A program made the translations under genes and the position numbers. DNA of 35,907 nucleotides, from positions 1 through 35,907 of the forward strand of contig CAMOXN010000004.1 of NCBI GenBank assembly GCA_946629175.1, written 5' to 3'. Positions within the stretch are counted from its first letter, which is position 1. The number at the start of each line of letters is the position of its first letter. Positions 2,645 through 35,840 of this stretch are shown one piece after another. This DNA is from an uncultured Lachnospiraceae bacterium (GTDB lineage: Bacteria > Bacillota > Clostridia > Lachnospirales > Lachnospiraceae). The notes beneath the pieces were generated by a model that was not told where the DNA came from, made no database searches, and worked only from the letters and a program-made list of their open reading frames with translations.

Positions 2645-4612
2645 TTATGCTGTCAGCGCGTCGCTCTTTCCGGTGTACAGCTGGTAGTAGCGTCCCTTCT
2701 GCGCCAGCAGTTCCTCGTGATTGCCGCGCTCTACGATCCGTCCCTGTTCCAGGACCAGGATCGTGTCGCTGTTCTTGATCGTCGAGAGCCTGTGCGCGAT
2801 GACAAAAGTCGTTCTTCCGCTCATCAGCTTGTCCATGCCATCCTGAACGATCTTCTCAGTTCTCGTATCGATGGAGCTTGTCGCTTCGTCGAGGATCAGC
2901 ACCGGCGGATCAGCGATCGCGGCTCTCGCGATCGCGAGGAGCTGCCGCTGGCCCTGGGAGAGGTTGGAACCGTCCCCCTTGAGCATCGTGTCATACCCAT
3001 GGGGCAGCCTCCGGATGAAACCGTCAGCATTTGCCAGTTTGGCCGCCGCTATGATCTCCTCCTCCGTGGCATCCAGCTTTCCGTAGCGGATGTTGTCCCG
3101 TACAGTGCCGGTGAACAGGTGCGTTTCCTGCAGGACCATTCCGAGCGACCTGCGTAGGTCCGGCTTTTTGATCTTGTTGATGTTGATGTTGTCATAACGG
3201 ATCTTGCCGTCCTGGATATCGTAGAAGCGGGTGAGCAGGTTCGTGATGGTCGTCTTGCCCGCGCCGGTGGAACCGACGAGCGCCACCTTCTCGCCCGGCT
3301 TTGCGTGGATCACGATGTCATGCAGTACCATCTTGTCGTCACGATAACCGAAATCCACGTTGTTGAAGGTGACATCCCCCTCCATTTTCTGGTAAGTCGT
3401 GCTGTGGTCGGACTGTTTGTGGTAGTGCTTCCACGCCCATTGTCCGGTGTGCTTCTCGCTCTCCACGACATTGCCTTCCTGATCATACTCGCAGTTGACG
3501 AGCATGACATAGCCCTCATCTTTCTCCGGCTCTTCGTCGAGGAGCTTAAAGACCCTCTCCGCGCCGGCGAGCGCCATGATAATACTGTTGAACTGCATAC
3601 TGACCTGGTTGATCGGCATACTGAAGCTCTTATTCAGAGTAAGGAAGCTGGCCAGCGCGCCGACCGTGAACCCTGCGTAGGTGTTGAGCGCCAGAATAGC
3701 GCCGACGATCGCCGCGACGACATAGTTCGCGTTGCCCATCTGCGCGTTGACGGGGCCGATCATGTTAGCGAAAGCGTTCGCCTTGTACGCGCTCTTAAAG
3801 AGTTCCTCGTTGAGCTCGTCGAATGTCCTGACGCACTCCTCTTCGTGGCAGAAGACCTTGACGACCTTCTGGCCGGTCATCGTCTCCTCGATGAAACCGT
3901 TCAGTTTACCGATATTGCGCTGCTGCGCGACGAAGTTCTTGCCCGAATTCTGCGTCACCTTCATTGTTAAGAACAGCATGAGCACCACCATCACCAGAGT
4001 CACCAGCGTCAGCGGGATACTGAGGATGAGCATCATGCTGAGTATACTGATGATCGTGATCGCGCTGTTGAACATCTGCGGCACGCTCTGACTGATCATC
4101 TGGCGGAGCGTGTCGATGTCATTCGTGTAGACGGACATGATATCCCCGCGGGAATGCGTGTCAAAATACTGAATGGGAAGGCTCTCCATATGATCAAAGA
4201 GGTCCTCCCTGAGCCGCTTTAAAGTGCCCTGGTTCACGTGCACCATCGTGACCTGCTGTGTAAAAGCAGCCGCGATACCGATGGCATAGAATAACACCAC
4301 TCTGGACATCGCCCCTAAGAGAGGCGCGTAATCGGGATCCGGCTGCCCGATCATCGGAGTGATATATGTGTCGATCAGCGTCCTCGTGAACATGGTCCCC
4401 TGGATATTGGCAAATACGGAGAGCACGATGCACATCAGAACAAGGATCATCTGCACGCCGTAGTACTTGAAGACATAGCTCATGATCCTCTTAAACAGGA
4501 GTCCGGGATTCTCCACTTTCGGGCGCGGCCTTCCGGCCATCCGTCTGCCGCCGCCTCCTCCGCCCTTAAATTCCCTGGTCTTTTCTTCTTCCGCCATTCT
4601 CTTACCCTCCAA
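2645..4612 (-). CDS. ABC exporter, fused TMD-NBD (consensus NBD half of a heterodimer)
   Basis: ABC membrane domain plus NBD: Walker A GSTGAGKTT, signature LSQGQ, Walker B LILDEATSSID, H-loop IAHR. Confidence 0.95.
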   Translation of the reverse strand: MEGKRMAEEEKTREFKGGGGGGRRMAGRPRPKVENPGLLFKRIMSYVFKYYGVQMILVLMCIVLSVFANIQGTMFTRTLIDTYITPMIGQPDPDYAPLLGAMSRVVLFYAIGIAAAFTQQVTMVHVNQGTLKRLREDLFDHMESLPIQYFDTHSRGDIMSVYTNDIDTLRQMISQSVPQMFNSAITIISILSMMLILSIPLTLVTLVMVVLMLFLTMKVTQNSGKNFVAQQRNIGKLNGFIEETMTGQKVVKVFCHEEECVRTFDELNEELFKSAYKANAFANMIGPVNAQMGNANYVVAAIVGAILALNTYAGFTVGALASFLTLNKSFSMPINQVSMQFNSIIMALAGAERVFKLLDEEPEKDEGYVMLVNCEYDQEGNVVESEKHTGQWAWKHYHKQSDHSTTYQKMEGDVTFNNVDFGYRDDKMVLHDIVIHAKPGEKVALVGSTGAGKTTITNLLTRFYDIQDGKIRYDNININKIKKPDLRRSLGMVLQETHLFTGTVRDNIRYGKLDATEEEIIAAAKLANADGFIRRLPHGYDTMLKGDGSNLSQGQRQLLAIARAAIADPPVLILDEATSSIDTRTEKIVQDGMDKLMSGRTTFVIAHRLSTIKNSDTILVLEQGRIVERGNHEELLAQKGRYYQLYTGKSDALTA

Positions 4613-4686
4613 GCATTTCGCACACCCGAAAAGGGAGCCTCATATTGCTGAGCTTCAATAATAATGCGTGCGATGTTCCGCGAACA

Positions 4687-6432
4687 CTATTTTTTGTCAA
4701 AGTCCGCGTCGCCGCCTGCTCCTACCTGGGACTCATACACTTCCCTGTAAATATCGTTGTTCTCAAGAAGTTCCTCGTGAGTGCCGAACCCATTCACTCT
4801 TCCGTCGTCCATGACGATGATCCTGTCGCAGTCCCTGACGCTGGAGATCCTCTGCGCGATGATCAGTTTCGTCGTTCCCGGGATCTCCTCCCGGAATGCC
4901 TTGCGGATCTTAGCGTCCGTCGCGGTATCCACCGCGCTGGTGCTGTCGTCGAGGATCAGGATCCTGGGCTTTTTGAGCAGCGCCCTCGCAATACAGAGCC
5001 TCTGCTTCTGGCCGCCGGAGACATTGGTCCCGCCCTGCTCGATCCAGGTGTTGTAACCCTCCGGCATTTTCTCGATGAATTCGTCTGCGCATGCCATCCG
5101 GCAGGCTCTCTTACACTCTTCTTCCGTGGCGTCCTTGTCTCCCCAGCGCAGGTTGTCCAGGATGGTCCCGCTGAACAGGACATTCTTCTGCAGGACGACC
5201 GAGACCTGGTTCCTCAGGACTTCCAGGTCGTAGTCACGCACGTCAATACCGCCGACAAGAACGCGCCCCTGCGTCACGTCATAAAGGCGGCTGATGAGGT
5301 TCACCAGCGAGGATTTGGCGCTGCCCGTGCCGCCGATAATGCCAATGCTCTCTCCGGACCGGATGGATAAGCTTATATCCTTGAGGACCGGATCGCCGGT
5401 ACCGGGGCGGTAGGAGAAGTCAACATCTTCGAACACGATGCTTCCGTCCGGGACTTCCATGACAGGATTTTCGGGATTGGTCAGGTCGCTCCGCTCGTTG
5501 ATGACTTCCGCGATACGCTTCGCGCTTGCCTCTGACATCGTCAGCATGACAAAGACCATGGAGAGCATCATCAGGCTCATGAGGATGTTCATACAGTAAG
5601 CCAGAAGGCTCATGAGCTCGCCGGTCCCCAGTTCCTTAGAGATGATCATATGGGCTCCGAACCAGCTGATTAATAGGATGCAGGCGTAGACCACCGACAT
5701 CATGACCGGCATGACGCCGGCAATATTCATTTCCGCCTTGATGAACATCTCGTAGATGTTCTCCGCAGCCGTGTGAAAGCGGTCCTTCTCGTAGTCTTCC
5801 CGCACATACGCCTTGACGACGCGGATCGCCGATACGTTCTCCTGGACGCTCGCGTTGAGGTCGTCGTATCTTCTGAAGACCTGCTGGAAATACTTGGTGG
5901 CCCTGCGCATCACAAAGGAGATGACAATCGCGAGAAAGATCACGGCGATGAGATAAATGCTCGCCAGTCTCGGACTGATGATAAAGGACATTGCCATTGC
6001 GATGATCATGGAAAAAGGCGCGCGCATGGCCATCCGCAGGAGCATCTGGTACGCGTTCTGGATATTGGTCACATCCGTCGTCAGTCTTGTGACAAGGCTG
6101 GAGGATGAGAACTTGTCGATGCTCGCGAAAGAGAAAGTCTGGATATTGTCATACATGGCCTTTCTGAGGTTCTTAGCGAAACCGGTCGCCGCCTTAGCTC
6201 CGAACACTCCGCCGAGAATACCGAATAAAAGGCCCAAAAGGGCGACGAACACCATGAACGCCCCGGTCTTTATGATGTAGCTCATATCCGACCCGCCGAT
6301 CCCGATGTCTACGATCCTTCCCATGAGAACGGGAATGATCATCTCGCAGACCACCTCCCCGATCATAAAGAGAGGCGTAAGAACAGAAGGCAGTTTATAC
6401 TCTTTAACTTGTGAAAGAAGTGTCTTGAACAT
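4687..6432 (-). CDS. ABC exporter, fused TMD-NBD (degenerate NBD half of a heterodimer)
   Basis: TMD plus NBD: Walker A GGTGSAKSS, signature VSGGQ, Walker B LILDDSTSAVD (E to D), H-loop IIAQRI (H to Q). Confidence 0.95.
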   Translation of the reverse strand: MFKTLLSQVKEYKLPSVLTPLFMIGEVVCEMIIPVLMGRIVDIGIGGSDMSYIIKTGAFMVFVALLGLLFGILGGVFGAKAATGFAKNLRKAMYDNIQTFSFASIDKFSSSSLVTRLTTDVTNIQNAYQMLLRMAMRAPFSMIIAMAMSFIISPRLASIYLIAVIFLAIVISFVMRRATKYFQQVFRRYDDLNASVQENVSAIRVVKAYVREDYEKDRFHTAAENIYEMFIKAEMNIAGVMPVMMSVVYACILLISWFGAHMIISKELGTGELMSLLAYCMNILMSLMMLSMVFVMLTMSEASAKRIAEVINERSDLTNPENPVMEVPDGSIVFEDVDFSYRPGTGDPVLKDISLSIRSGESIGIIGGTGSAKSSLVNLISRLYDVTQGRVLVGGIDVRDYDLEVLRNQVSVVLQKNVLFSGTILDNLRWGDKDATEEECKRACRMACADEFIEKMPEGYNTWIEQGGTNVSGGQKQRLCIARALLKKPRILILDDSTSAVDTATDAKIRKAFREEIPGTTKLIIAQRISSVRDCDRIIVMDDGRVNGFGTHEELLENNDIYREVYESQVGAGGDADFDKK

Positions 6433-9840: not shown

Positions 9841-12423
9841 TTACTGTCCGTCCGCAGCATCTGCGCTTACGTTGTTGTCACTGCTTGCGCTGAAGTCACC
9901 GCTTCCGGAATCGTCTCCGCCGCCGGAGTTGTCTCCGCCGCCGGTGTTATCTCCGCCGCCGGTGTTATCTCCGCCGCCGGAGTTGTCTCCGCCGCCTGTG
10001 TTGTCTCCACCGCCGGTATTGTCTCCGCCGCCGGTATTGTCTCCGCCTCCGGTGTTGTCTCCGCCGCCGGTGTTGTCTCCGCCGCCGGTATTGTCTCCGC
10101 CGCCGGTGTTATCTCCGCCGCCGGGATTGTTCCCGCCGCCGCTGTTATCTCCGCCGCCGGGATTGTTCCCGCCTTCGGGGAATTCCTCGCCGCCGCTGTT
10201 ATCTCCGCCGCCGATGTTATCTCCCTGTCCGCCGTTATCATTGTCCGGTTCCACAAATACAGGCGGCTCTTCGATAAAGAACTGCTCTTCTTTGGTCGTT
10301 TCTTTCTTCTCGGTGGCCGCTTCCGTATTGGAATCATCATGATGGCCGTGGTAGTCGTCGTCATCATCTCTTTCCTGGTCCTTGAGAGCCCTCTTCTCTT
10401 TGGCGCGGTCGTAGTCCTTGAATTCGACCGCCTCGAGGTCTTCATGGATCAGGTTCATAAAGCTGTTCCAGATCCTTCCCGGCCAAGCCGCTCCCTGAAG
10501 TCCCCGGACGCTTTCCGGCGTATCACAGCCAACCCAGACTGCCGTCGTGTAATAGTGCGTGAAGCCGCAGAACCATCCGTCCTTGGCATCGTCCGTCGTT
10601 CCCGTCTTGCCTGCGCAGGGCATTCCGTTCCTGAGTCCCAGGCCGCGCCCGGTGCCCCAGTCTTCTTCCATAACGCCCTGCAGAACGCTCACCATCTCTC
10701 TGGCCGCGTTCTTATCATAGATCTTGGAGGACACTCCGTCATAGGAATAGATCGTTGAGCCCTTATAATCAAGGATCTTCGTGATGCAGGTGGGGATCCT
10801 GTATTTTCCGTCGTTCTGCAGTGTGCTGTAACCTGCGGCCATCTCGACCGGTTCGACGCCGTAGGTGAATCCGCCCAGGCTCGTCGCGAGCGTATAATCG
10901 GAATCCACGATCTGCGAAAAATGCATTCCCTTAAGTTTGGAAAGGCCGTATCTCGGCGTTACATCCTCATAGACCTGCCAGGCGACAGTATTGAGAGATC
11001 TCTGGACCGCCTCGCTCAGCTCCATTTCACCGTAATAGCCTCCGCCCGCGTTCTTCGGTCCGTCTTCGATCTCCTGGTCCTCGACCAGAGTCCCGGGATA
11101 GTATTCCCTCTCAAATGCCGGCGTATACACCACGAGCGGTTTAATGGAACTGCCGGGCTGCCTGTGGCTCTGGAACGCGCGGTTCAGCGTGAGCGCGGAG
11201 TCTATGTCCTGCGAGCGCCCGCCGACCATTGCCACGACCTGTCCGGTACTGTTGTCTATGCAGACAGCCGCGCCCTGCATTTTGTACTTGCCGTCATCCG
11301 CCGTGTCCGTGAAGGAAGACAGCTCTTCATCCACGCACTCCTGCAGTTCATCCTGCTTCTCCATATCGAACGAAGTGTAGATCTTATAACCGCCCTTGAA
11401 GAGTTTGGCAAGGCAGGCGTCGTAAAGATCGTTGTAGATATTATCATAGGAAGCCCGCTCCTGGTCTGACGCGAAGTCATACCGGAGTGAGAAATCAGGG
11501 TCCTCGATCTGCATCAGGACCTCGGTAGCGCACTTATAGGTATAAGTGAGCACATATGTGTTCTCATTCAGGTCTGATTTCCTGTTCCCGCTCAGATCCA
11601 GGACAATGCTCTCCTTGACAGCCTGGTCATACTCAGCCTGGGAGATCACACCGTCGCTGAGCATATTGGACAGGATCAGGTTCCTTCTCTGCACGGTATG
11701 CTCCGGATAGACAAGCGGATCGTAATAGGTCGGGCTGTTCGGTATCGCGCACAGGTATGCCACCTGTGACAGATCCAGTTTATCAGGCGTTTTGTTGAAA
11801 TATCCTTCCGAAGCGGACGCGATCCCGTAATAGCCGTTCATGAAGTAGATATTGTTGAGATAAAACTCAAGGATCTGGTCCTTGTTGTATTTCTTCTCCA
11901 TGTCCCAGGCGATGAAGATCTCCTCGATCTTCCTCTCCCAGGTACGCCCGTTATTCAGGAAGATCCCTCTTGCGAGCTGCATCGTGATCGTGCTTCCGCC
12001 CTGCGTGATCTGTCTTCGCAGGACAAGCTCTTTTGCCGCGCGCACGATCGCCTTGTAATCGACGCCGTTATGCTTGTAATAGCTCTTGTCCTCAATGCTG
12101 ACGATCGCCTGCTTGAACAGTTCGGGGATCTGGGAATAAGTCAGGTAATTCGAATCCTTATCAGGCAGAGTCTCCGAAATAAGTGTGCCTTCGGAGTCAT
12201 AGATCTCTCCTGTCTGGGAAGGGACGAAAGTCTCCTTCGTAGACTCAGAGACGAAGCTGTCCGCTTCATCCTTCATCGCTTTGACCCTGTCATAGTAACC
12301 GCCAAAATAGAAAATGCAAAGTGCGGCCAGCATCCCTGTAAGGAACAGCAGTATAAGCACTTTTAATATTAACAGGATGGGATTCGTTCTCCTCTTTTTC
12401 CTTCGTCCATTCTTAGCCATCAC
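9841..12423 (-). CDS. Class A penicillin-binding protein (PBP1A-type transglycosylase/transpeptidase) with a Gly/Asp/Asn repeat tail
   Basis: GT51 region (VSIEDKSYYKHNGVDYKAIVRA, QGGSTITMQLARG), transpeptidase SxxK (RQPGSSIKPLVVY), SLN, KTGTT; C-terminal (GGGDNT/S)n. Confidence 0.95.
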   Translation of the reverse strand: MMAKNGRRKKRRTNPILLILKVLILLFLTGMLAALCIFYFGGYYDRVKAMKDEADSFVSESTKETFVPSQTGEIYDSEGTLISETLPDKDSNYLTYSQIPELFKQAIVSIEDKSYYKHNGVDYKAIVRAAKELVLRRQITQGGSTITMQLARGIFLNNGRTWERKIEEIFIAWDMEKKYNKDQILEFYLNNIYFMNGYYGIASASEGYFNKTPDKLDLSQVAYLCAIPNSPTYYDPLVYPEHTVQRRNLILSNMLSDGVISQAEYDQAVKESIVLDLSGNRKSDLNENTYVLTYTYKCATEVLMQIEDPDFSLRYDFASDQERASYDNIYNDLYDACLAKLFKGGYKIYTSFDMEKQDELQECVDEELSSFTDTADDGKYKMQGAAVCIDNSTGQVVAMVGGRSQDIDSALTLNRAFQSHRQPGSSIKPLVVYTPAFEREYYPGTLVEDQEIEDGPKNAGGGYYGEMELSEAVQRSLNTVAWQVYEDVTPRYGLSKLKGMHFSQIVDSDYTLATSLGGFTYGVEPVEMAAGYSTLQNDGKYRIPTCITKILDYKGSTIYSYDGVSSKIYDKNAAREMVSVLQGVMEEDWGTGRGLGLRNGMPCAGKTGTTDDAKDGWFCGFTHYYTTAVWVGCDTPESVRGLQGAAWPGRIWNSFMNLIHEDLEAVEFKDYDRAKEKRALKDQERDDDDDYHGHHDDSNTEAATEKKETTKEEQFFIEEPPVFVEPDNDNGGQGDNIGGGDNSGGEEFPEGGNNPGGGDNSGGGNNPGGGDNTGGGDNTGGGDNTGGGDNTGGGDNTGGGDNTGGGDNTGGGDNSGGGDNTGGGDNTGGGDNSGGGDDSGSGDFSASSDNNVSADAADGQ
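9915..10240 (-). repeat. 18-bp coding tandem repeat in the PBP C-terminus (GGGDNT/GGGDNS/GGGNNP)
   Basis: Repeated (ccgccggtgttgtctccg)-type units read directly; more than a dozen hexapeptide units in the translation. Confidence 0.9.
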
Positions 12424-29226: not shown

Positions 29227-29256
29227 AGAGGTACAGATCTCATGCTCTGTACCTCT
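29227..29256 (-). terminator. Intrinsic terminator at the 3' end of the metI gene
   Basis: Minus strand AGAGGTACAGA-GCATGAGA-TCTGTACCTCT-TTGCT, 11-bp stem overlapping the metI stop. Confidence 0.7.
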
Positions 29257-29920
29257 TGTCCGTCCTTCGCGCGATCCGGTTGCCGGCTTCCTGGATGATC
29301 TGCACAATGATGACCGTAAGGAACACGCAGCACCATGTCACATCCGGATTGAAGCGCTGATGTCCGTAGCTGATGGCGATCTGCCCCAGCCCGGTGCCGC
29401 CGATTGTCGCGGCCATTGCGGAATAGCCCAGGATCGTCACCATGGAAATGACCGCTCCTGTGATCAGGGATGGCTTCGCCTCCGGAAGAAGGACTTTCCA
29501 TACGATCTGCAGGTTGTTCGTTCCCATGGACTGCGCGGCTTCGATCACCCCCGCGTCCACTTCTTTGAGAGAGCTTTCCACCATGCGGGCAACATATGGG
29601 GAAGCTGCTATGACCAGCATCACGATCATTGCCTTATTCCCGAGACTTACGCCCACGATCAGCTTTGCCACAGGAAGCATGGCCACCATCAGGATGATGA
29701 ACGGAATGCTCCGGAAGAAATTCACGATGAGTCCGAGGATTCTGTTGAGCAGCGGCAGCGGCTGAATTCCCTCCTTGTCCGTAATATTGAGTATGACGCC
29801 CAGCGGAAGCCCTATACAGTAAGAGAGCGCCGTTGACAGGACCGTCATGTAGACAGTCTCCCATACCCCCAGCTGAATGAGTCCGTTATCCCACAATTTA
29901 AGGAACATCTCTGAAAACAT
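29240..29920 (-). CDS. metI: D-methionine-type ABC transporter permease
   Basis: Typical MetI: IQLGVWETVYMTVLSTALSYCIGLPLGVIL...NFFRSIPFIILM; adjacent to metN. Confidence 0.93.
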   Translation of the reverse strand: MFSEMFLKLWDNGLIQLGVWETVYMTVLSTALSYCIGLPLGVILNITDKEGIQPLPLLNRILGLIVNFFRSIPFIILMVAMLPVAKLIVGVSLGNKAMIVMLVIAASPYVARMVESSLKEVDAGVIEAAQSMGTNNLQIVWKVLLPEAKPSLITGAVISMVTILGYSAMAATIGGTGLGQIAISYGHQRFNPDVTWCCVFLTVIIVQIIQEAGNRIARRTDKRYRA

Positions 29921-29923
29921 GCC

Positions 29924-30913
29924 TTACACCTCCTCCTGCCATTCGATCGGGCTGCTCTTCAGCCAGGCAATGATCTTCTCCGAATCCCTCTCGGAAGAAG
30001 GCAGCTCCAGAAGCATCTGCCCATACGTCTCGGAATCCAGTTCTTTCATATTCGCGTACAGGATATTGACAGGACATCCGCAGTCCAGGATCATCCGCGA
30101 GAGCACCGGCTCCTGTGAATGTTCCGACCGGAATGTCAGCCTGACGCGCCTTCCCCCGGGCTCCATCGCATCAGAGCGGCTGTCCGGCAGGATCAGTTCC
30201 CTTGCGATCGCTGACCTGGGATTTGTGAACACTTCGCTGACCTTTCCCTCCTCCGCGATCCTGCTGTTATCGAGCACCGCGACGCGGTCGCAGATCTGGT
30301 CGATCACCTTCATCTCATGGGTGATGATCACGATCGTCACTCCCATAGTTTCATTGATCGTCGCCAGAAGTTCCAGGATAGACCTTGTAGTATTGGGATC
30401 CAGAGCGGAAGTGGCTTCATCGCAGAGCAGATATTTGGGCTTTGTGGCAAGAGCCCTGGCTATTGCTACCCTCTGCTTCTGCCCTCCGGATAATTGAGAC
30501 GGATAAGAGCCTGCGCGGTCTCTAAGACCGACAAGCTCGAGTAATTCCATTGCCCTTTCCTTAGCTTCATCCCGTTTCACTCCGGAGACTTCCAGCGGAA
30601 AGGTCACGTTATGAAGTACATCCCTCTGCTCGAGAAGATTAAAGCCCTGGAAGATCATTCCTATGGACTGCCTTAAGTTCAGCAGCTCTTTTCTGGAGAG
30701 CGCAAGGATGTCTTTTCCGTCGATGAGCACCTGTCCGGAAGTCGGACGTTCCAGCAGGTTGATACATCGGACCAAGGTGCTTTTCCCCGCACCGGAAAGG
30801 CCGATGATCCCGTAGATCTCTCCGTCGCGAATGGTCAGATCGATATCTTCCAGCGCAACGATCTCTTTGTCAGAAGTATGATAGGTCTTTCCAAGGGATC
30901 TCAGTTCTATCAT
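29924..30913 (-). CDS. metN: Methionine ABC transporter ATP-binding protein with C-terminal NIL domain; start refined to MIELRSLGKTY
   Basis: [67 protein letters not shown]-terminal ACT/NIL-like region. Confidence 0.93.
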   Translation of the reverse strand: MIELRSLGKTYHTSDKEIVALEDIDLTIRDGEIYGIIGLSGAGKSTLVRCINLLERPTSGQVLIDGKDILALSRKELLNLRQSIGMIFQGFNLLEQRDVLHNVTFPLEVSGVKRDEAKERAMELLELVGLRDRAGSYPSQLSGGQKQRVAIARALATKPKYLLCDEATSALDPNTTRSILELLATINETMGVTIVIITHEMKVIDQICDRVAVLDNSRIAEEGKVSEVFTNPRSAIARELILPDSRSDAMEPGGRRVRLTFRSEHSQEPVLSRMILDCGCPVNILYANMKELDSETYGQMLLELPSSERDSEKIIAWLKSSPIEWQEEV

Positions 30914-31004
30914 GAAATCATACACCTCCATCTCCGGGGAGACAGGACTCCCCGGAGCGTTCACATGAATCAGCCGGCATGATCCCGGGCTCAATAAGTC
31001 ATCT

Positions 31005-32693
31005 TCACTGAATCGGTACGATGCCTGCGCCTGTTTCCGCATTATACTGGTCAACAACACCGTCCTTCAGGGCTGCCACCAGTGCCTTGATAGCAGGATC
31101 CTCTTCGTCTCCCCTTCTCACGGCAATGATGTTGGAGTAGGTCTGCGCGGCGTCACCGGAAGCGTCTTCAATGGCGAGCGCGTCCGTTGTTTTGAAGCCG
31201 GCGCCTAAGGCGTAATTGTAATTGATGACCGCAATGCTTCCCGCGTCGCTGTTCTTCAGAAGAGCAGGGACCGCATCCGCCTGGACAGCCTGGATCTGAT
31301 AACCGTGGTCATCCGCGATATCGAGGATGGACACGCCGTTCTCGACAGACGCGCCTTCCGGAAGCTCTATGATCCCTTCCTGCTGAAGCAGCAGCAGTGC
31401 CCTGGTCTGGTTGGAATCATCATCCGGAACGATGATCACTGCGCCTTCAGCCAGATCATTCAGGTCCTCTACGCTGTAACTGTAGATGCCGAAAGGCTCA
31501 TAATGGATCAGTCCTGCGGATACCAGGTCTGTACCGTTCGACTCATTGAAGCTGTTCAGATACGGCCTGTGCTGGAAATAGTTGGCGTCGAGAGTCCCGT
31601 CCTGAAGCGCGGTATTCGGAAGCACGTAATCATCATAGATAACGATCTCGAGAGTGATTCCCTGCTCCGCAAGGACAGGTTTTACGATCTCCAGAAGCTC
31701 TGCATGGGGAGTGGAACTTGCTCCGACTTTCAGCACAGCCGCTTCTGTTGTCTCAGCGCCGGTCCCCGCAGCCTGTCCTGCAGGAACGCCTCCCTCCACG
31801 ACAAGGCTGTCCTCATACTCCAGTCCGTAGGTATCCGCCAGTGTAGCCTCATAATCCTTGTGGAAGAAATTCTCAGCTGCGAGCGCTTTGATCTCATCGT
31901 TGATCCAGTTCAGTAAGGTCTCATTTCCCTTGGAGACGGCAGGAGCGATCGTATCCTGGCTGCCGAGAGACGGGATGCCTACCGTGTAGCCCGGATTCTG
32001 AAGCGCATACGCGATCACTTCCGTATTGTCATTGGCCCATGCCGCGGCATTGCCGTTCTCCAGCGCGTTCTTCGCGTTTGCATATGTGTCATATTTCTGG
32101 AGTTTGATCTCGGGATTGTTCTTGATCAGGTAATCCTCTGCGGTCGTGCCGGAGATCACGATCACTTCATCGTCCGCGCCAAGCTGCGACAGATCGGTGA
32201 TCACCCTGCTGTCGGGAGACACGACGCCGAGCGCGACATTCATGTAAGGCAGAGCGAAGTCGACCTTCTCAGCGCGTTCGGGAGTGACCGTGAAGTTCGC
32301 AAGGACAATGTCCACCTTTCCTGTCTCCAGATATTCCACGCGGTTCGCCGCTTCCGTAGAGACATAGTTGATCTCTACGCCGAGATCCTCTCCGATCCTG
32401 TTGCCGAAATAGACATCGTAGCCCTGGTATTCCCCGTTCTCATCGACATATCCGAAGGGATTCTTGTCGGAGAAGACGCCGATATTGACGGTGCCGCTCT
32501 CCTTGATCTGATCGAGCGTCCTGTAGACGGCGTCCTGTGCCTGCGCGTCTTCGGAAGGGGCTTCGGCAACTGTTTCTGTTTCTGCCGGAGCAGCCGCCGG
32601 TTCCGGCGCTGACGCGGATGATCCGCATGCCGCCAGCGACACTGCCAGTATCGATGCCAACCCGATTCCTACTATCTCACGTAATTTTTTCAT
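31005..32693 (-). CDS. Bi-domain substrate-binding lipoprotein: N-terminal SBP_bac_3 (CjaA/PEB1-like) domain fused to C-terminal MetQ/NlpA domain
   Basis: Lipobox VSLAAC; NIGVFSDKNPFGYVDENGEYQGYDVYFGNRIGEDLG...ANRVEYLETGKVDIVLANFTVTPERAEKVDFALPYM (SBP_bac_3) then VGASSTPHAELLEIVKPVLAEQGITLEIVIYDDYVLPNTALQDGTLDANYFQHRPYL (NlpA); single uninterrupted ORF; RBS GGGAGG before ATG 32693. Confidence 0.93.
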   Translation of the reverse strand: MKKLREIVGIGLASILAVSLAACGSSASAPEPAAAPAETETVAEAPSEDAQAQDAVYRTLDQIKESGTVNIGVFSDKNPFGYVDENGEYQGYDVYFGNRIGEDLGVEINYVSTEAANRVEYLETGKVDIVLANFTVTPERAEKVDFALPYMNVALGVVSPDSRVITDLSQLGADDEVIVISGTTAEDYLIKNNPEIKLQKYDTYANAKNALENGNAAAWANDNTEVIAYALQNPGYTVGIPSLGSQDTIAPAVSKGNETLLNWINDEIKALAAENFFHKDYEATLADTYGLEYEDSLVVEGGVPAGQAAGTGAETTEAAVLKVGASSTPHAELLEIVKPVLAEQGITLEIVIYDDYVLPNTALQDGTLDANYFQHRPYLNSFNESNGTDLVSAGLIHYEPFGIYSYSVEDLNDLAEGAVIIVPDDDSNQTRALLLLQQEGIIELPEGASVENGVSILDIADDHGYQIQAVQADAVPALLKNSDAGSIAVINYNYALGAGFKTTDALAIEDASGDAAQTYSNIIAVRRGDEEDPAIKALVAALKDGVVDQYNAETGAGIVPIQ

Positions 32694-32723
32694 ATTTCCT
32701 CCCGGGCTCACCGCCCTTTTCTC

Positions 32724-33482
32724 TTATGAATGCGAGTGTTTCCTCTCAAAAGTAAATGTCCTTAAGAATTCTTTCGCTCTTTCCGTTTTGGGATGATCAA
32801 AGAACTGATCGGGATCGCCCTCCTCTTTGATCACGCCTTCATCCAGAAAGATGACTTTATCCGCGACCGCTCTTGCGAACTGCATTTCGTGCGTGACGAT
32901 GATCATGGTCTTGCCCTGCTCTGCAAGCCCCAGGATCACATCCAGGACTTCCCGCACCATCTCCGGATCCAGCGCTGCCGTCACTTCGTCAAAGAGCAGG
33001 ATCTCCGGGTGCATGCAGAGGGCCCTTACGATCGCGACACGCTGTTTCTGACCTCCGGAGAGCTGTCTGGGAAAGCTGCCGGCTTTTTCCTGAAGTCCTA
33101 CACGGGAGAGAAGGGCAAGGGCCTCTTCTGCCGCTTCCTCCCGGGAACGCTTCTGCACCTTTGTCGGGGCAAGCGTGATGTTGTCCAGCACGTTCAGGTG
33201 CGGGAACAGCTCATAACTCTGGAAGACCATGCCGATCTTCTGACGGATCTCGGGCAGGTTCCTGCTTTTTTTGGATACCGCCTCCCCCTTCAGCCTGATC
33301 TCTCCGCCCTGGATCTCCTCCAGGGCGTTGATACATCGAAGAAGTGTGCTTTTTCCGCATCCGCTGGGTCCGACGACCACGATGACTTCGCCTTCGTGCA
33401 CGTCAAGGCTGATGTCATTGAGTACAGTCAGGTCATCGAACCGCTTGACCAGATGCTCTATTTCTAAGACTTTTTCAGACAA
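32724..33482 (-). CDS. Polar amino acid ABC transporter ATP-binding protein; predicted TTG start
   Basis: [65 protein letters not shown] places a TTG start just past the upstream stop. Confidence 0.92.
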
Positions 33483-33486
33483 TGGC

Positions 33487-34161
33487 TCACCTCCATCGCT
33501 TTTCGAGATATCCGGCCAGCATGCTGATCGGCCAGCACGCGGCAAAATACAGCAGGAACACAGTAAGATAGACTCCGAACGCGGCATTGGGACTGCTCAT
33601 CCGGTTCGCCTCAATGATCTGCTGGGCGACCTTCAGGACTTCCACTACGCCTATCATCAGCACCAGGCTGGTGGTCTTGATCATGCGGGTGATCAGGTTG
33701 ATCGACAGAGGTATCAGCCTCCTCACCGTCTGAGGCAGAATGATATACCGGTATGTCTGCATTCCTGTCAGCCCCAGGGCAGCCGCGCTTTCATATTGAT
33801 GGATGGGAATACTGATGATCGCTCCTCTGACAAGATCGGCCATTTCGGCTGTTCCCCAGAATGAGAACACGATCACCGCGGACAATTCCCCGGACAGGTT
33901 CCAGCCGAAGATCCTTGTCGTCCCGAAGTATACGAGGAAAAGCAGGACCATCTGCGGCATGATCCGCACGATCTCCAGATAACATCGGGTGACCGCCCGG
34001 CTGATCGGATTCTTCCATGTCATCAGCATTCCGACAAGAACACCTGCCAAAATACTGATCGCGACAGAGATCAGGCTGATCTTCAGCGCGACTCCCAGTC
34101 CTCCCAGTATCCTCATCAGGTTCTTTCCCTTGAAGAGGACTTCAAGTCCCAAATCCGGCAT
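33487..34161 (-). CDS. Polar amino acid ABC transporter permease (HisM/GlnP family)
   Basis: [48 protein letters not shown] (EAA loop). Confidence 0.93.
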
Positions 34162-34801
34162 AACGGAGCCTCCTTTCCAGCAGGCTCCCGGCCAGCGAGA
34201 CCGGAAGCAGGATCAGCAGATAGAATATCACCAGCAGGAACAGGCTCTCTGTCGTCTGATAATACAGGCCGATCAGATCCTTAGCAGTGAACATCAGGTC
34301 CATCAGGCTTATGGCGGAAAAAACACTCGTCTCCTTGAGCAGGAAAATAACGTTGGCCATAAATGCCGGCATACAGATGGATAAAGCCTGCGGGAAGACA
34401 ACGTATCGCAGTGTCTGCCATCTGCTCAGCCCCAGACTGTACGCGCTCTCATACTGTACCGTCTCGACGGCTTCTATTCCGCTTCGGAATGCTTCTGCCA
34501 TGTAGCTCCCGCCCAGGAAAGCAAGGCCGGCTATTCCGCAGACCTCCGCGTTTGTCCTGATCCCGATCTTAGGAAGCCCGTAGTATATAAAGAACAGCTG
34601 GATCAGTAATGGCGTATTCCTGCTGATCTCGACATATACATTAGCTGCCTGCCTCAGGAACGGGATCCTGAAATTCTGCGCTGCTGTACAGAAGATCCCG
34701 ATCAGGATCGAAAGGAGAATACCGGCAACCCCTATTTTTACTGTCAATACCGCTGACTTCTGGTACAGCGGCAGATATTTCATAATAAAATCCCATTTCA
34801 A
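34142..34801 (-). CDS. Polar amino acid ABC transporter permease (HisM/GlnP family); TTG 34801 or GTG 34810 start
   Basis: YVEISRNTPLLIQLFFIYYGLPKIG, ESAYSLGLSRWQTLRYVVFPQALSICMP; GAGG 8 nt upstream of the TTG. Confidence 0.92.
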   Translation of the reverse strand: MKWDFIMKYLPLYQKSAVLTVKIGVAGILLSILIGIFCTAAQNFRIPFLRQAANVYVEISRNTPLLIQLFFIYYGLPKIGIRTNAEVCGIAGLAFLGGSYMAEAFRSGIEAVETVQYESAYSLGLSRWQTLRYVVFPQALSICMPAFMANVIFLLKETSVFSAISLMDLMFTAKDLIGLYYQTTESLFLLVIFYLLILLPVSLAGSLLERRLRYAGFGT

Positions 34802-34880
34802 AATGAGCACCTCTTGCTTTTCTCATCCGTCCTGTTGATCAGATGCCTTAATTCGCGACCTTTGAACATCTCCGGGCATG

Positions 34881-34915
34881 AAAAGACCCGGGACATTTTT
34901 CATAAAGCTCCCGGG
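34881..34915 (-). terminator. Leader intrinsic terminator (candidate attenuator)
   Basis: Minus strand CCCGGGA-GCTTTATGAAAAATG-TCCCGGG-TCTTTT, between the leader ORF and the first permease gene. Confidence 0.65.
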
Positions 34916-34945
34916 CAAATGGCAAATAGTGAACACACAGTCTTT

Positions 34946-35071
34946 TTATTTCTGCATATTAACGAGGCGTACAGACAAGCAGCCGAACACCCCAGCCATA
35001 TAGTATGCCCGGGAGTATGACATTCGACAACACATGCTGATTTTCTGCTTAATAACTGTTTTCCGAAGCAT
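34946..35071 (-). CDS. 41-aa leader peptide MLRKTVIKQKISMCCRMSYSRAYYMAGVFGCLSVRLVNMQK
   Basis: Translated codon by codon; strong RBS AAGGAGG 7 nt before the ATG; about 23 nt downstream of the predicted TSS; not in the ORF track because it is under 60 aa. Confidence 0.7.
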   Translation of the reverse strand: MLRKTVIKQKISMCCRMSYSRAYYMAGVFGCLSVRLVNMQK

Positions 35072-35100
35072 CTGACCGCCTCCTTACTGCAACTGGAGCA

Positions 35101-35129
35101 ATCATATACCGATTTACATACTATGTCAA
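35101..35129 (-). promoter_or_regulatory. Sigma-A promoter of the sulfur amino acid uptake operon
   Basis: Minus strand TTGACA - exactly 17 nt - TATGAT. Confidence 0.85.
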
Positions 35130-35216
35130 TAGGCGATAACAGAATTCTTTTATGCACCCATCCGGAACGCAGTTCCGAAGGAAGCTATGATATACCGGAA
35201 ACTTTCTATTAATTAA

Positions 35217-35840
35217 CCGCCCCCTTATACTCAAGGCACATCATGGTCAGGTCATCGAACTGTTCCGCATCGCCGATATGAACCACATATAGCCGGGGCC
35301 GTTGCCCATCAGCTGATAGACGTTCGTATAATAATTGGTGGCGGAAGTCGGGACCGTGTTGTACCCGGCAAGCGTATCCGGATCGGTCTTGATCTTATTG
35401 TTATACAGCCCCCCCTTTGACGGCATGCAGTCCCATATACTGGCCGCGGACTATTTTGGCGTCGAACTGCTCCAGAGTCTGGGTGAAGAGCTCGAGATCG
35501 TAAGATCCGTCCTCTTTGCCGGCCCTGTAAAGCTTGTTCTCCCACTCCATGGATGCCCACCACATGGAATGCGCGGGATCCGTATAGCCGTCATATATCT
35601 CATTTGTAAAAATATTGTTCTGATATTTGTGTGGTGCCCATTAATCAAGGTTGAATTCAGCCCGGAACGCGTGGCACTGTCTCCGATCGTCAGGACGACA
35701 CGTTCCTTAGATGTATCAGATTCCCCGGCAGCGGCAGCTTCCTCTGCGGCGGCAGATCCTCCTGGACCCGCAGGTGCCACGGCGGCAGCAGAACAAGGCA
35801 ACAGCATCAGGATCATTAATATAGATAACATAAAAGGCAC
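35217..35840 (-). pseudogene. Degraded lipoprotein/secreted protein gene with a PP2C/SpoIIE-like C-terminal remnant
   Basis: Coding similarity jumps frames: signal peptide-like start and KERVVLTIGDSATRSGLNSTL; then APHKYQNNIFTNEIYDGYTDPAHSMWWASMEWENKLYRAG...MGLHAVKGG in another frame; then LYNNKIKTDPDTLAGYNTVPTSATNYYTNVYQLMGNGPGYM after a G7 run; finally IGDAEQFDDLTMMCLEYKGAVN*. Confidence 0.6.

Follow-up and report, generated by a model that had tools for sequence, protein, structure and literature searches.

In Clostridia, cysteine control is known to act through T-boxes and the S-box, and other mechanisms may exist (PMC2940859). In Clostridium perfringens, cysKE, cysP1 and cysP2 carry a cysteine-specific T-box (PMC2940859), an RNA that binds tRNA directly without translation. 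Attenuators of the E. coli trpL, his and leu type instead contain a leader ORF with tandem control codons, a 2:3 antiterminator and a 3:4 intrinsic terminator. Within Firmicutes, histidine leader peptides of hisS and hisZ in bacilli replace the T-box by ribosome-mediated attenuation (PMC2965389), and Rli60 of Listeria ilv-leu combines a Gram-positive attenuator with the promoter-level regulator CodY (PMC5864092). As for cysteine, runs of Cys codons occur in short ORFs ahead of cysteine genes in mycobacteria and other Actinobacteria (PMC1262725), and cysteine-responsive attenuation has been demonstrated in mycobacteria according to a citation in PMC13236596 (Canestrari et al. 2020). The actinobacterial polycysteine ORFs have no conserved terminator hairpin, and Rho-dependent or translational mechanisms have been proposed for them (PMC1262725). 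In Rhodobacterales, a conserved uORF before cysS (uORFC-8-2) has a Cys tandem as its codons 14-15, and a terminator lies after it (PMC8632094). An earlier note on the DNA studied here had stated that Cys-rich leader ORFs are known in other phyla, in agreement with these two reports.

We analyzed a 35,907-nt stretch (the window) from a 68% complete draft genome of an uncultured Lachnospiraceae bacterium, in which one copy of a Cys-containing leader was found. The leader ORF and its expression signals are as follows:

35116..35134, minus strand: operator-like palindrome GCCTATTGACATAGTATGT overlapping the -35 (family consensus ACCTATTGACATAGTAGGT)
35101..35129, minus strand: sigma-A promoter TTGACA-17-TATGAT, matching 11/12 consensus positions
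35079..35085, minus strand: Shine-Dalgarno (SD) sequence AAGGAGG, perfect and 7 nt 5' of the leader ATG
34946..35071, minus strand: leader peptide ORF of 41 codons, MLRKTVIKQKISMCCRMSYSRAYYMAGVFGCLSVRLVNMQK, recognised from the sequence and its conserved family
35027..35032, minus strand: control codons UGU UGU (Cys-Cys), at Cys positions conserved in the family and with its UGU preference
35021..35026, minus strand: CGA-AUG right after the Cys codons (CGA in 84/94 and AUG in 93/94 loci of the family)

The ORF runs from ATG (35069-35071) to TAA (34946-34948) and contains three Cys and five Met, with ATG TGT TGT CGA ATG in succession at 35035-35021. The ORF, its composition and its MCCRM run had been given correctly in the earlier note, from which only the strand was missing. 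The note had also placed a consensus promoter and a strong SD before the ORF. The SD is indeed perfect, and the promoter, with its -35 TTGACA (35129-35124) and -10 TATGAT (35106-35101) separated by 17 nt, is close to consensus, but it is not significant when taken alone (one promoter-like site seen versus 1.7 in shuffles).

The leader shares the plan of the trp, his and leu type. It differs from that type in its control amino acid, cysteine, in the position of segment 2 (inside the ORF, 3' of the control codons), in the further helix and the internal hairpin, P2, that its antiterminator contains, and in that one conserved element serves many different sulfur genes. The His leaders of bacilli differ from it in amino acid, genes and sequence. 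In comparison with the described features of uORFC-8-2, the Cys codons of the window are likewise codons 14 and 15, and the proposed logic is the same. However, uORFC-8-2 is alphaproteobacterial, precedes cysS only and uses mostly UGC, whereas the clostridial leaders use UGU, and its Cys codons lie within the first stem according to the published description (PMC8632094). Mycobacterial polycysteine ORFs are leaderless, whereas the clostridial leader has a strong SD as well as an intrinsic terminator and an antiterminator that covaries; its Cys run lies mid-ORF and not near the stop, which sets it outside the actinobacterial class. No NCBIfam family was found for five leader peptides, and a Cys leader in Clostridia was not found in a literature search whose scope excluded most subscription journals and preprints. 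The earlier note had recognised no described family in the peptide, and Rfam, NCBIfam and the literature searched agree; having found no description, we regard the family as an undescribed form of ribosome-mediated attenuation.

The same arrangement was found at about 107 loci, 94 of them non-redundant, in Lachnospiraceae and other Clostridia. Within the genus, a DNA search showed that similar leaders are not confined to the region upstream of the window-type permease, and the same ORF could be read before an O-acetylhomoserine sulfhydrylase and other genes. A covariance model built from 23 sequences (R1), which includes the Cys-codon columns so that its matches are partly selected by them, matched 41/298 genera of the family, 13/392 genomes sampled from the class (five families), 13/197 genomes from the order and 2/300 from the phylum; these counts are lower bounds, with 7-15 candidates scored per genome. 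Named carriers are [Clostridium] citroniae, Clostridium porci, Gemmiger formicilis, Faecalicatena contorta and Hominifimenecus microfluidus. A second model (R2), which starts at segment 2 and excludes the Cys codons and CGAAUG, recovered the same loci as R1. All of its strong matches, both in loci fetched by permease homology and in 250 genomes, have in-frame Cys codons just 5'. Three weak R2 matches (L013, L250 and L251) were short or had no Cys codons, and were rejected as false positives. At one locus (L088), two leader copies lie 1.8 kb apart (2740-2887 and 4581-4728); the first has a stop within the leader ORF and no sulfur gene after it, and is apparently a decaying duplicate.

At least one in-frame Cys codon stands among the six codons before CGA in all 94 non-redundant loci, and Met in 86/94, so that the ORF with its Cys and Met codons, whose conservation the earlier note had proposed to check, is indeed kept in related loci. 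There is one Cys codon in 17 leaders, two in 48, three in 21, four in seven and five in one, at position -1 in 79/94 leaders and at -2 in 73/94. The number varies by whole codons, as in MCCRM, MCCCRM, MCCCCRM, MCCCCCRM and MCMCMCRM. The start codon is most often exactly 45 nt 5' of CGA. UGU, a minority Cys codon in genes, is strongly preferred in the leaders (UGU 176 : UGC 33, against 54 : 100 in downstream genes; p=4e-22). CGA is conserved after the Cys run despite being the rarest Arg codon (20/547 in window genes), and we speculate that CGA may be slow and thereby steady the ribosome.

Could the ORF be incidental, with a metabolite riboswitch or T-box sensing cysteine, SAM or tRNA-Cys directly? 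CGAAUG and the helices are strongly conserved, and pairing constrains some ORF codons, as such an RNA would require. Like the C. perfringens T-box, the leader would couple premature termination of sulfur genes in Clostridia to tRNA-Cys charging; T-boxes, however, use UGC and not UGU. The window and 12 homologous loci gave no match to Rfam 15 at the gathering score, T-box and SAM/S-box included, and thus no T-box with its core, specifier loop and NCCA-binding bulge was recognised there. At E<=5, the window gave nothing but atoC (16.2 bits against a cut-off of 50). By inspection, there is no conserved aptamer-sized loop outside the antiterminator helices. Moreover, the frame-keeping Cys variation and an SD-proximal ATG in frame with the Cys codons at 81/86 homologous loci point to translation, and peptide changes are tolerated N-terminal to the Cys run. 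We therefore consider a directly sensing RNA very unlikely.

The leader might also sense methionine. An attenuator acting as a dual Met-Cys sensor would account for the frequent Met before CGA, for patterns such as MCMCMC, CCMCMC and MCM, for the almost invariant AUG after CGA, which may add Met sensing, and for the many downstream genes of methionine synthesis or uptake. On the other hand, Met is found in fewer loci than Cys, leaders alternating with Met show no significant tie to transporter genes (Fisher p=0.20), and AUG-UGU may partly come from repeat expansion. Sensing of Met is thus possible, Cys being the universal signal, and a true dual sensor appears rather unlikely.

The alternative structures of the window leader are formed by the following elements:

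35006..35015, minus strand: segment 2, CUCCCGGGCA, 5' arm of the antiterminator inside the leader ORF (perfect 10-bp inverted repeat, covariation)
34995..34999, minus strand: segment 2', AUGGC, 5' arm of the inner antiterminator helix, pairing with GCCAU at 34919-34923
34964..34993, minus strand: internal hairpin P2, GGGGUGU (34993-34987) with ACGCCUC (34970-34964) (paired positions, double changes)
34919..34923, minus strand: GCCAU, 3' arm of the inner antiterminator helix (pairing with segment 2', double changes)
34908..34917, minus strand: segment 3, UGCCCGGGAG, common to antiterminator and terminator (inverted repeat, covariation)
34880..34915, minus strand: intrinsic terminator CCCGGGAGCUUU / AAAUGUCCCGGG, then UCUUUUC (inverted repeat; the strand lying 3' of segment 3 and a T-run recur in the family)

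Starting 11 nt 3' of the last Cys codon, segment 2 forms a perfect 10-bp helix with segment 3 (35015-35006 with 34917-34908), while the terminator arms are 34915-34904 and 34898-34887. Because segment 3 is common to both, the antiterminator and the terminator are mutually exclusive. When the window RNA was folded from segment 2 onward (ribosome to 10 nt past CGA), the antiterminator was predicted, and without segment 2, the terminator. RNAfold of the whole window leader alone gave z=-1.37. A pattern-based scan missed the window terminator, whose loop and tail fall outside its rule. A pairing of CGAAUG with P2, seen by eye, holds in the close relatives of the window, fails across the family and was rejected.

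Across 83 loci, pairing of segments 2 and 3 reached 9.55/10, compared with 9.29 +/- 0.03 in 2000 permutations (maximum 9.40), where segment 3 was found by sequence only and loci were treated as independent of shared ancestry. On an alignment (A2) fitted to the antiterminator structure, and thus favouring it, 91.8% of cells in the three antiterminator helices (P1, P1b and P2) were paired, against at most 46% when slid; double-change cells numbered 127, compared with 38 +/- 10 in shuffles, in counts that ignore shared ancestry. The helix of segment 2' with GCCAU had 90.5% of cells paired and double changes in 5/5 pairs. In P2, the inner five pairs were paired in 89.7% of cells and the outer two in 72.7%, with double changes at every pair. 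Segments 2, 3 and 4 co-vary in several loci, e.g. CCCAGGC / GCCUGGG / CCCAGG in L159 and L157, and such joint change is the signature of alternative pairing. Against this, terminator complementarity alone was only modestly above permutations (5.72 versus 5.64 +/- 0.03 of 7); part of the reason is that segments 3 and 4 hardly vary.

The same comparison bears on nascent-chain arrest of the TnaC kind, in which free cysteine, methionine or another ligand in the exit tunnel would stall the ribosome. The R-M and S-R-A-Y that follow the Cys run do look conserved at the peptide level. However, where S-R-A gives way to S-Q-A or S-R-T, segment 3 carries the compensating change, so the constraint is on RNA pairing and not on the peptide. 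The residues that would lie in the tunnel (codons -14 to -7) show hardly any conservation (0.3-0.7 bits), conservation starts at the Cys codons, and the start codon is close, about 12 codons 5' of the Cys run. Arrest by the nascent chain is accordingly highly improbable.

The spacing of control codons and segment 2 fits attenuation by a translating ribosome. When the last Cys codon occupies the A site, the ribosome extends some 9-10 nt beyond the first base of CGA. UCCCGGG lies at +12 from CGA in 85/85 loci where it was recognised, and segment 2 begins at +11, so that, judging from the constancy of this spacing, a Cys-stalled ribosome would just leave segment 2 free, and a ribosome one or two codons further on would cover it. 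With the ribosome placed at Cys, folding gave the antiterminator in 63/81 loci, and the terminator was still preferred in 15/81, which count against this reading; with the ribosome beyond segment 2, the terminator was obtained in 78/81. Without a ribosome, the predicted state was split 42 to 37, again a point against. The leader stop is variable, mostly +60 to +81 nt after CGA, and its position seems not to be critical. Since it lies beyond segment 2, the non-stalled state must depend on passage of the ribosome and not on parking on segment 2, which also counts against the reading.

Taken together, the leader is in all probability a ribosome-mediated (trp-type) transcription attenuator that senses tRNA-Cys charging. 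The suggestion of such attenuation in the earlier note is borne out by the terminator, by the exclusive, covarying antiterminator and by in-frame Cys codons before sulfur genes, with no known riboswitch or T-box. The ORF, the Cys codons, both alternative structures, the constant spacing and the gene context are read from sequence and comparison, and from them we infer that the ribosome stalls and transcription terminates, which way the response goes and what the operator does. A promoter under a probable sulfur/Fe-S repressor would start the leader RNA, and the ribosome would translate the short peptide. When Cys-tRNA is plentiful, the ribosome would cross the Cys codons and segments 2, 2' and P2; with these covered, segment 3 would pair with segment 4, leading to termination before the transporter genes. 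When Cys-tRNA is short, the ribosome would stall while its A site holds a Cys codon, its leading edge lying just 5' of segment 2. The free segments 2 and 2' would then pair with segment 3 and GCCAU to form the antiterminator, and RNA polymerase would enter the operon. Most likely, then, the leader family turns on sulfur uptake and assimilation genes upon stalling for charged tRNA-Cys.

The palindrome over the -35 adds a possible second layer. ACCTATTGACATAGTAGGT was found within three mismatches over the -35 in 72/93 leader loci, versus 0/465 shuffled upstream regions, and it looks like an Rrf2-type (CymR/IscR) sulfur/Fe-S operator. Within the genus, the same palindrome precedes nifS-like, sufC, gshF and cysK genes without a leader, these genes being named by sequence resemblance and not by family search. 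It appears to mark a wider sulfur/Fe-S regulon (also L210-L226). A repressor at this site might be the sole control, with terminator and ORF as decoration, and the presence of the operator in most loci and before leaderless genes agrees with this. Yet the covariation and the conserved geometry of the control codons would be lost in the absence of selection, and repressor-only control is extremely unlikely. Tentatively, a broader picture may be considered on top of Cys attenuation: a portable Cys-tRNA attenuator, unrelated to T-boxes, that acts across the whole regulon and provides much of Lachnospiraceae and neighbouring Clostridia with their main sulfur control at the RNA level. It would be layered over a repressor operator, tuned by UGU and a constant slow CGA, and in some lineages would sense Met and Cys together through alternating AUG-UGU. 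We hold this as a possibility well short of probable.

The genes downstream of the window leader are as follows:

34142..34810, minus strand: first structural gene, an amino-acid ABC permease (cystine type, PF00528)
29240..34161, minus strand: second permease, ATPase, SBP_bac_3+NlpA lipoprotein, MetN (NIL) and MetI, for putative sulfur amino-acid uptake

Spacing and strand suggest that these uptake genes form one operon. The two permeases are of the PAAT type, and the set as a whole confirms that transporters lie downstream of the leader, as had been noted. After the 94 leaders, sulfur genes predominate: we found 39 O-acetylhomoserine sulfhydrylases, six genes of the cystathionine lyase/synthase type, 21 binding lipoproteins (eight fused, seven NlpA type, six family 3), 11 cystine-type permeases, two cysK, two MetN, one MetI and 12 other genes, including a gshF-like gene, a LysR regulator and a peptidase.

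A Cys attenuator would be a further mechanism of clostridial cysteine control. The bacteria concerned are dominant in the gut, and their sulfur metabolism feeds the supply of hydrogen sulfide and methionine. Such an attenuator would make trp-type attenuation in Firmicutes a recurrent, mobile regulatory module and not an isolated case. For many uncultured species, the leader would allow the sulfur regulon to be predicted with nothing but DNA, and the roughly 100 variants found in nature, which carry 1-5 control codons, provide a testable set.

Several other features of the window were observed. The lipoprotein (31005-32711, minus strand), encoded between the PAAT transporter and MetN-MetI, has a family-3 (cystine-type) binding domain fused to an NlpA/MetQ domain, and the same fusion follows the leader at at least eight other loci. 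Directly after the transporter operon lies HydE, an [FeFe]-hydrogenase maturase (TIGR03956; 28037-29152, minus strand). The region 5' of the leader (35200-35840, minus strand) contains broken ORF remnants that look like a decayed gene. A large ORF at 9841-12423 (minus strand) resembles a penicillin-binding protein and ends in a long GGGDNTGGG-type repeat tail.
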